A stretch of 27,023 bases of DNA from a virus. Under the pieces are notes generated by a model. That model was not told where the DNA came from. It searched no databases and worked only from the letters and a program-made list of their open reading frames with translations. Numbering within the stretch: position 1 is the stretch's first letter; the number at the start of each line of letters is the position of its first letter. The position numbers were made by a program, and so were the translations under genes. Positions 11,435 through 13,383 of this stretch are shown one piece after another. The stretch covers positions 1 to 27,023 of IMG/VR virus record IMGVR_UViG_3300023184_000447. The stretch is one strand, 5' to 3'.

Positions 11435-11509
11435 TTAGGCGATCAACACGCCGCAGAATTGCGGCCCGCTGCTCGTCAAATTACCGGCCCACCCAATAAG
11501 CTTAACAAC
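11435..11509 (-). CDS. Major capsid protein, exon 3 of 3
   Basis: These are the last 24 codons and TAA of the coat protein: VVKLIGWAGNLTSSGPQFCG then VLIA. Podovirus coat proteins of this family end with '..NQDA.VK.I.WAGNLT....QGV..A'. Exon 2 stops at NQDA, and this stretch continues it exactly in phase. Without splicing, the same bases would be read as the tail of an intron-derived ORF beginning near 11737, which has no homology-like features upstream of the VVKLIGW block. The next gene follows after 12 bases containing its Shine-Dalgarno. The exon starts with GTT immediately after the terminal G of intron 2. Confidence 0.88.
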   Translation of the reverse strand, partial: VVKLIGWAGNLTSSGPQFCGVLIA

Positions 11510-11757
11510 CATTCTATTACTTTCAGCCTTGCGGCTTACTGACCATTTCTGGCGGGGAAACTTCTTCGAATCTCCCTCACTCGCTTCTTTTGTTATACGA
11601 GTGTTTAGACTATCGCATCCGTTATTCACGGTTTTCTCACTTAGTCGTTCACGCTGCACGCTTACGCTGCTTGCGCCCTGTTGCCCACTTCTGGGTTTCC
11701 AAGTCAATAAGAGAAAATTTATAGACGCCATTTGCAAGCTTAATGCAAAGTAGGTTT
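11510..11757 (-). ncRNA. Group I intron 2 of the capsid gene (ORF-less)
   Basis: This is a 248-nt intron between codons Ala309 (GCT) and Val310 (GTT) of the coat protein. The last exon base is T and the last intron base is G, as group I splicing requires. P1: exon GACGCT pairs with intron GGCGTC (11724-11729) with the terminal T-G wobble; a hairpin TTTGCA/TGCAAA sits in its extension. P3: TTTTCTC (11711-11717) pairs with GAGAAAA (11632-11638). P7: GACTA (11642-11646) pairs with TAGTC (11608-11612). P8: CCGT/ACGG between them. P9: CACTCG/CGAGTG; a further hairpin AGCC-GCAA-GGCT precedes the 3' end. All core helices are present and the size is near the lower limit for self-splicing. Sequence shows the pairings; activity is inferred. 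Confidence 0.9.
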
Positions 11758-12603
11758 AGCGTCTTGGTTGACAGCCTGACGCTCGCCGCCAATCGGAACA
11801 AAGTTACGGTCTGCGTGCGGCCTGAACATCATGTACTTGGTGTTCAGAAACCACATATGGCTAGCAGTAGCCGCCGAACCGATACCACCGTCCAGCACCA
11901 CGTCAGAAGCCATACCCGCGCCATAGTATTTCAGCGAGGCAAAACCAGCACCGGCAGTTGAATTGCCGCTGTCAGAAATGCGTTGAATTGACTGCAAGGA
12001 CTGAAGGTACAGACGATAGAAAATATTGTCTGCAACGATCAGATCAGGCTTATCGGTTCCGCGAATCAACTGAACAGCAAGCGAATCCATGTATTGCTGG
12101 ATGTTGGAAGCAGTAACAGCAGCACCACCGTTCGTCACGCCCGAATAAGCTACGGACTGCCAGAACGTATAGGTCGCGCGGTTAATACCACCATAGGTTC
12201 CAGAGGTAGGCGCATCAGGAACGGCAGCGCCGAGGCCCGTGATGTTCTTTCCGCTGTTGCCGGTTCCGTCCAGATAAATATCCGATCCAATACGGTTAGC
12301 TAGTTGCGCTTCAGCCACATTCATACGACCGTCCAGCAGGTCAATAATGGCCTCTTTGCCGCTGTTCTGGATCATTTCCAGACCGCTAATCGAAACAGCC
12401 GAAGCGTACTGGGTGATACCAAACTGCGCCGCCGAGATGGGGCTGTTTTGCGACACGTTCAAAACTTCATAGCCACTATAGCTGTTAGTGTTATTGGTCG
12501 TGCTGTCATTGTACATAATCTCTTGCAGGATTACGTTACCGCCGGAGAACGTCTTGACGTTTCCACGTTCCTTTAGGCGGCGCAAGAGCGCGTTGTTATT
12601 TGT
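11758..12603 (-). CDS. Major capsid protein, exon 2 of 3
   Basis: This exon gives 282 codons (residues 28-309) of the HK97-fold coat protein. It starts TNNNALLRRLKERGNVKTF and ends PIGGERQAVNQDA. Family markers are the N-arm ..LADNV.NNALL.RL..RG, SGG.VILQE (residues about 48-56), the helix-rich middle with GKEAIIDLLDGRMNVAEAQL, and FLNTKYM.FRPH..RNFVPIGG near the end. The 331-residue ORF that covers it (11740-12735) has a false N-terminus: its first 40 or so residues come from intron 1 and its last few from intron 2. With exons 1 and 3 the protein is 333 residues, a usual length for this family. It forms the capsid shell with the scaffold encoded just upstream. Confidence 0.92.
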
Positions 12604-13302
12604 CCTATCGTTATGTTTCGGCTCTTTATCCGAAACCTGCACATTCCTTTTATGTGCAGAGCAGACTATCTCATCGCAAGTTTTTCGCTTGCTTGGTGGC
12701 ACTAATCTTTGCGCCATGACCTTTCGGCTTTCCAAGCTGCGCCAATCTACGTTTCAAGTTGCTTTCAGGTGATTGCGTAAAAGTTCCCGCCCTCGCCTTT
12801 GTCGCTAATCGTCCTCTGGCAATAGCATAAGGCGTTGGTTGAAACGAAACTTCATTTTCGTTTAGCAACAAGCCTTGCGCCCTGTAATGCTTCATCCAAG
12901 ACAACTCGCGCTCACGCTTCTCAATCACCGAAACTTCTGCTGGCATCGTTTCAAGCACCCGCATCTGAAACTGTCCAGCGTGATCGTTCCACGCTTCTTG
13001 CAACTTTGTAGAGCTATGCTTTCCCGTTTTCAGCAAACTTCTATGCTCTCGCATTCGCTTGCCAGGCTTACCTGCTGTGCAACCTATGTAAGCCGCGCCG
13101 GTACTTGCATCTTCTAATCCGTATATTGTCACCATTTGGGATACCCCTCTGTGGTTGATACTTACGCTTCGCGCTCGTGGGACTCAGCTTCCGCTTTGTC
13201 CTAGTCGTTACACCTTCAGCAACCTTTTAACTTTGCCGCTTGGCTCGGTGTTGGCATCGCAGCTTTTCACCGAATTCACGAAGTTTTTTAACGTCTAATT
13301 TA
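12604..13302 (-). ncRNA. Group I intron 1 of the capsid gene, encoding a GIY-YIG nuclease
   Basis: This 699-nt intron follows Val27 (GTT) of the coat protein; the first intron bases TAA would be an in-frame stop. P1: exon AACGTT pairs with intron GACGTT (13290-13295), with the terminal T-G wobble at the splice site. The 5' core has GAATTCGGTG...CACCGAGCC (P4/P5 region) and GGTGTAACGACTAG, typical of IB-like bacterial and phage introns. P7: GACTA (13202-13206) pairs with TAGTC (12664-12668). Two perfect 3' hairpins follow, CTGCACAT/ATGTGCAG and GTTTCGG/CCGAAAC, then GATAGG with a terminal G. The nuclease gene lies between the two P7 strands, so it occupies the P3/P8 region. I could not settle P3. 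Confidence 0.9.
12671..13135 (-). CDS. GIY-YIG homing endonuclease (intron-encoded)
   Basis: This 154-residue protein starts at ATG 13135 after GAGGGG. The N-terminal nuclease domain has TIYGLEDASTGAAYIGCTAG (residues 3-22, the GIY and YIG elements with Tyr5 and Tyr16), catalytic Arg27 region KRMREHRS with His31, and a downstream Glu in EKRERELSWMKHY (Glu75 or Glu77), then LNEN near 91-94. The C-terminal third is basic (RRLAQLGKPKGHGAKISATK) and likely contacts DNA. It lies inside intron 1, and its TGA ends two bases before the 3' strand of P7, an arrangement in which ORF and ribozyme share sequence. Such enzymes cut intronless alleles and drive copying of the intron. Target site is presumably the capsid gene near codon 27. 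Confidence 0.9.
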   Translation of the reverse strand: MVTIYGLEDASTGAAYIGCTAGKPGKRMREHRSLLKTGKHSSTKLQEAWNDHAGQFQMRVLETMPAEVSVIEKRERELSWMKHYRAQGLLLNENEVSFQPTPYAIARGRLATKARAGTFTQSPESNLKRRLAQLGKPKGHGAKISATKQAKNLR

Positions 13303-13383
13303 AACGTTGTCTGCCAGCTCACCGGAGCGACTTTGAATGTTGGTCGCAATGATGTCACTAACAGAACTATTGGCAAATGCCAT
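13303..13383 (-). CDS. Major capsid protein, exon 1 of 3
   Basis: These 27 codons start at ATG 13383 with AAGGAG nine bases upstream. They read MAFANSSVSDIIATNIQSRS then GELADNV. This is the conserved N-arm of BPP-1-type podovirus coat proteins (MAFAN..S.II...I..R...LADNV), which in intronless homologues runs straight into T.NNALL.RL. Here a stop (TAA) follows at once, and the matching TNNNALLRRL resumes 699 bases later. The exon is too short to be called by itself, so automated annotation would likely miss the true start of the coat protein. The assignment rests on the family pattern plus the P1 pairing at its 3' end. Confidence 0.9.

Follow-up and report, generated by a model that had tools for sequence, protein, structure and literature searches.

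Introns in phage capsid genes have already been published for Tuc2009 and LittleE (PMC3706429) and for zeta-group crAss-like phages (PMC7886860). In the Cluster J mycobacteriophage LittleE, the major capsid gene is interrupted by an intron of some 819 bp that contains a putative homing endonuclease gene, and its splicing was demonstrated by RT-PCR and by N-terminal protein sequence (PMC3706429). The zeta-group crAss-like capsid ORF of OLRF01000054 is broken into five parts, and three of the four gaps contain group I domains (PMC7886860). Small group I introns (mean about 206 nt), many of them without an endonuclease, occur in the Jug phages, where metatranscriptome reads support the splicing of 37 of 76 (PMC12363816).

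This study examined a stretch of viral DNA of 27,023 nucleotides from an IMG/VR record (the window). Judged from its sequence, the major capsid gene almost certainly contains two group I introns, each from a different family, the removal of which would yield one normal 333-residue coat. The whole gene lies on the minus strand at 13383-11435, and the insertions fall exactly between codons 27 and 28 and between codons 309 and 310:

13303-13383, minus strand: major capsid protein exon 1, 81 nt, codons 1-27, with the end ACAACGTT; the joint is backed by intronless alleles
11758-12603, minus strand: major capsid protein exon 2, 846 nt, codons 28-309
11435-11509, minus strand: major capsid protein exon 3, 75 nt, codons 310-333 and the stop

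The exons (81, 846 and 75 nt) join in phase to give 333 aa and a stop. A preliminary description of this DNA had read three coat pieces as one product of 333 residues, and all of its coordinates held, in agreement with the 80 intronless orthologs. The spliced protein matched phrog_9953 (major head protein) over residues 4-333, against 5-328 of 329 (E=1.2e-102), and aligned from end to end, across both joints, with the uninterrupted orthologs at the 80 IMG/VR loci (residues 1-333, 89-98% identity). Relatives of the coat among isolates, at about 50% identity, were found in phages of Stenotrophomonas, Myxococcus (Mx8, Mx9), and Bradyrhizobium.

The locus resembles LittleE in having a capsid intron with a putative endonuclease, an exon ending in U and an intron ending in G (PMC3706429), but LittleE is a phage of another type with one intron, whereas the window has two unrelated introns in a gene family that has been invaded repeatedly. 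With the zeta-group crAss-like phages it shares a capsid ORF split by several group I insertions (PMC7886860). Those phages, from the gut, are large and have introns in many of their genes, detected by way of endonucleases, whereas here the contig is 27 kb, the capsid gene is the only one in which an interruption was seen, and small introns lacking an ORF are involved. Short introns, many without an endonuclease, are also a trait of the Jug phages (PMC12363816), but the genes that hold them there, terL and nrdD among others, belong to huge phages.

The insertion at codon 27 is the longer of the two and contains an open reading frame:

12604-13302, minus strand: intron 1, group I, class A family, 699 nt, phase 0, starting with TAA in frame and with G as its last base
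13290-13295, minus strand: intron 1 IGS GACGTT, pairing with the exon end AACGTT, U-G at the splice site
13202-13206, minus strand: intron 1 P7 5' strand GACTA, from the RF00028 match
12664-12668, minus strand: intron 1 P7 3' strand TAGTC
12671-13135, minus strand: ORF for a GIY-YIG homing endonuclease, 154 aa, between the P7 strands (P8 region) of intron 1

The endonuclease ORF scored 28.2 bits with Pfam GIY-YIG (PF01541), above the cut-off of 22.6, and also matched phrog_5123. A search with its protein retrieved 51 loci, and intron 1 was present at the identical codon 27 in 48 loci, on independent contigs. An alignment of 20 class A introns had 98% of cells paired and showed compensatory changes in 17 of the 28 predicted pairs. 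Members of the class A family lie at capsid codons 21, 27, 72, 83, 109, and 145, and at 21, 72, 83, 109, and 145 there are introns without an endonuclease. One relative (L125, 1300-3183) carries the codon-27 intron together with another insertion, about 1 kb long, close to codon 69 and with a class A core towards its 3' end. We take the class A core (GAAUUCGGUGAAA..ACCGAGCCAAGC..GGUGUAACGACUAG) to resemble that of the Azoarcus-type (IC3) group I introns. Introns of that type are located in tRNA genes, whereas those of class A are in capsid genes and one of them holds a GIY-YIG endonuclease.

The insertion at codon 309 is shorter, without an ORF of its own, and belongs to a separate family:

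11510-11757, minus strand: intron 2, group I, class B family, 248 nt, phase 0, with G as its last base
11740-11745, minus strand: in-frame CAT TAA of intron 2, the stop of the unspliced capsid frame (...NQDA-KPTLH-stop)
11724-11729, minus strand: intron 2 IGS GGCGTC, pairing with the exon end GACGCT (7 bp once the adjacent pair is counted), U-G at the splice site
11711-11717, minus strand: intron 2 P3 5' strand TTTTCTC, from class B covariation
11642-11646, minus strand: intron 2 P7 5' strand GACTA, from class B covariation
11632-11638, minus strand: intron 2 P3 3' strand GAGAAAA, from class B covariation
11608-11612, minus strand: intron 2 P7 3' strand TAGTC, from class B covariation
11579-11602, minus strand: intron 2 P9 hairpin, from covariation and the covariance model

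The preliminary description had looked to the Rfam model RF00028 for both insertions. It matched intron 1 at 28.3 bits (E=0.0014), which is under the gathering score of 50, and gave no match to intron 2 up to E=10. This does not disqualify intron 2, since RF00028 is a model for detection and not a definition, and the structural features are in place. A class B covariance model, built from 27 relatives with the window left out, found intron 2 at 141.1 bits (E=3.7e-26), and its only further match in the window, a weak one that overlaps intron 1 at its 3' end, scored 19.6 bits (E=0.016). Across 28 aligned class B introns, helices P3-P9, including the P3/P7 pseudoknot, P4-P6, and P8, held up, with 97% of cells paired; two-sided changes were seen at 29 of the 43 pairs, and pairing fell to 38-44% once the partners were slid. 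Intron 2 was found at codon 309 in 28 loci, and its class B relatives at codons 53, 60, 151, and 309 of the capsid family as well as at many sites in P22-type coat genes.

For both introns, the features that had been picked out earlier (T before the intron, G at its end, an IGS, and P7 strands GACTA/TAGTC) were recovered, and the T and the G were present in 48/48 genes at codon 27 and 28/28 at codon 309. Intron-bearing genes all use GTT as codon 27 (48/48) and GCT as codon 309 (28/28), as against 6/80 and 20/80 intronless genes, respectively, a bias expected if the U-G pair of the group I 5' splice site constrains the synonymous third position. At codon 27 the IGS and exon pair over 6-8 bp, at codon 309 over 7-8 bp; across 20 site lineages, the contiguous match averaged only 5.0 bp versus 3.7 bp for mismatched combinations, and several sites are weak. 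A P10 pairing, judged by eye, was not convincing. Guanosine-dependent RNA splicing of both introns is proposed from these sequence features, each presumably leaving the capsid mRNA by a guanosine-initiated two-step reaction.

Intronless alleles exist, and the mobility of the introns is read from their presence and absence among alleles. Intron 1 would be a homing element, its GIY-YIG endonuclease cutting intronless codon-27 alleles and repair copying the intron in. The family of intron 2 occupies many sites, the majority of them in head-protein genes, and may spread by reverse splicing or with the help of trans-acting endonucleases. Two introns in a structural gene of a podovirus had at first seemed unusual, a view that did not hold up given the published capsid introns and the close relatives of this phage: when loci were picked by their portal gene rather than by the capsid, 14 of the 25 complete capsid genes were intronless and 11 had one to three introns (codons 27, 53, 72, 83, and 309), so that capsid introns are common here, not exceptional. 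Pattern searches with both intron types returned mostly head-protein genes (the window capsid family, P22 coat, phrog_1357, phrog_1328, and phrog_1005), a capsid share that is biased because the patterns were derived from capsid introns, and also some introns in tape-measure, portal, NrdD, and ribonucleotide reductase genes. Some P22-coat sites (40, 48, 50, 375, and 396) were misplaced by spliced alignment, and these and truncated loci were left out as independent sites.

Two of the relatives have three-intron capsid genes, one at 2753-4977 of L083 (L083/L321), with introns at codons 27, 72, and 309, and one at 2722-5034 of L126, with introns at codons of about 28, 72, and 109; these genes mix or repeat the two intron families. 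The podovirus ctn9Y15 (MW202674.1) has a class B intron in its P22 coat gene that is 82% identical to intron 2. At this locus (L318, MW202674.1 16569-18084), GenBank lists two coat CDS with a hypothetical protein between them, which are one intron-split gene, and the first coat CDS ends in the tag-like YFLLAA. In Roseobacter phage CRP-118 (L319, 3976-4377), an unannotated class B intron lies between two CDS named ribonucleotide reductase, with the read-through GTNP-stop.

In many class B relatives, the unspliced host frame runs into the intron and ends in a peptide resembling the tmRNA (ssrA) degradation tag. Real tags, taken from bacterial genomes with ARAGORN, include ANDERFALAA, ANDETFALAA, ANDEQYALAA, and ANDENYALAA, and among the intron tails are ANDEKFALVA, ANEEQFALAA, and SNDAVFALAA, each followed by a stop; the difference is that the intron tags are encoded in cis and added by ordinary translation, not by trans-translation. 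At P22-coat site 387, the tails are ANDSSFALVA, ANDQSFALVA, and ANDEKFALVA, at site 392 ANDKMFAMVA, near 371 ANEEQFALAA (L462) and MNDAEFKVAA (L297), near 365 VNDCGYLQAA, and at site 85 YQDAYFLLAA, TYQEAYLLAA, and ANSAFFALTA. An SU10-type capsid gene gives SNDAVFALAA (L267), another capsid-like gene SNDELFALVA (L282), and an N4-type capsid gene AQAEQFALAA (L281). For L462 and L267, the tags are read-through tails and not natural protein ends, since the two exons match consecutive parts of the P22-coat and SU10-capsid profiles, respectively. Tag-like read-through ends of class B introns in head-protein genes were recorded at the following loci:

L292, 263-541, minus strand
L198, 1752-2029, plus strand
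L253
L317, 3625-3905, minus strand
L462, 3-437, plus strand
L267, 4718-5659, minus strand
L282, 10290-10655, plus strand
L281, 2228-3331, plus strand
L407, 4057-5163, plus strand

Tape-measure genes of three loci (L202, L203, and L228) have class B introns after MLDNL, with the tails NNMGALAA, NTMGALAA, and SIAGALAA before the stop.

The tails were also recovered by a blind screen of the class B and other later-added loci, in which all stops preceded by ten open codons, in six frames, were ranked by similarity to ANDENYALAA. Among 113,285 stops, the two true tmRNA genes ranked first and the 13 best distinct peptides after them (score at least 21) were all class B read-through tails, while 65,324 stops in other loci and the window gave no tag score above 22. 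Exact single-peptide p values for the AND-type tails were 1e-6 to 1e-8, and a fresh sample added two tagged sites, those of ANEEQFALAA and the VNDCGYLQAA group. It is probable, on the strength of these peptides, that the tag mimic in the family of intron 2 hands truncated coat or tape-measure protein to ClpXP-type proteases, sparing virion assembly.

Part of the tag signal is structural, which raises the question of whether the endings are unselected by-products of RNA structure, with the IGS GGTGGCC giving LVA and the core GCAGCGTGA giving AA-stop. At P22-coat sites 387 and 392, VA does come from the IGS, and a hairpin overlaps AND..FA; likewise, the core spells AA-stop in one frame, and frames entering it often finish in this way through the conserved GCAGCGTGA. 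The notion that every AA-stop ending is a selected tag was rejected for this reason, and the tag argument rests on stops that come before the core and on similarity to the tag over its full length. Such tags, of the AND..FALAA type, occur where neither the IGS nor the core can supply them (L267, L282, L462, and P22-coat 85), and the codons used for the terminal LAA differ between lineages (TTA GCA GCT, CTA GCT GCT, CTC GCT GCC, CTA GCG GCG, and CTC GCC GCA), which argues for selection on the peptide. Together with the outcome of the blind screen, this makes an origin as a mere by-product unlikely, and selected tags are the preferred reading.

Alternatives to splicing itself fare worse. The window is a 27 kb metagenomic contig and splicing is deduced from DNA, so that the three ORFs could in principle be a truly broken gene, in decay or joined by a chimeric assembly; yet contigs from other samples (L083, L085, and others) show an identical arrangement, the catalytic cores of both insertions covary, and the exons are intact and in phase in dozens of loci, leaving this very improbable. 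Exons in phase would also suit inteins or programmed frameshifts, dealt with at the protein level, but this is scarcely credible, as it is already contradicted by the in-frame stops at the start of both insertions, and, in addition, the RNA helices are conserved and no intein domain was present among the families searched. An origin of both introns from a single element, duplicated within the capsid gene, is about as improbable as a broken gene. Both families do move among sites of the same gene, but their cores differ, the class B model separates intron 2 (141 bits) from intron 1 (only 19.6 bits), and relatives carry either intron without the other, in line with the separate entries suggested in the preliminary description.

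Introns in essential, highly expressed genes must not poison the host with truncated protein. The two families appear to use several kinds of capsid gene as preferred homes, and in the class B family proteolysis tags encoded in cis appear to have arisen to deal with failed splicing; if true, this would be a new way for a selfish element to pay its keep, connecting group I introns, trans-translation, and ClpXP. In the open-access literature, no report was found of a group I intron family concentrated in the capsid genes of small phages, nor of intron-encoded tmRNA-like degradation tags. There is a practical side also, as many capsid genes of environmental phages will receive a broken or truncated annotation unless such introns, which can be missed by the Rfam model, are recognised.

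The read-through ends of the window differ from those of its tagged relatives. The unspliced frame gives a 27-residue stub at intron 1, where a stop follows immediately, and residues 1-309 plus KPTLH at intron 2; neither window intron has a tmRNA-like tag, the KPTLH-stop tail scoring -1 (p=0.13). The in-frame stops near the 5' end of each intron would curtail translation of unspliced mRNA, and the tag-like end, which the window copy lacks but many relatives of intron 2 have, would lead to removal of the truncated coat protein. An early stop within an intron shields the ribozyme core from ribosomes, as described for the T4 td intron, and such shielding may be all that the window copy needs. Within the KPT[LIF]H tail, third codon positions vary at 4 of 5 and the other positions at 1 of 10 (Fisher p=0.017), which hints at a coding constraint.

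Endings of a hydrophobic residue, His, and stop (LH, VH, or IH) close the unspliced frame in many introns of both classes (window 11740-11757, W53, W60, W72, W83, W145, W151, and P109), and they do so in the frame of the exon at sites of phase 0, 1, and 2 alike. A role as a second degron was considered, with nothing for it but this recurrence. The ending is partly the hairpin-loop CATTAA, and in W145 the same ending is made from a different part of the fold.
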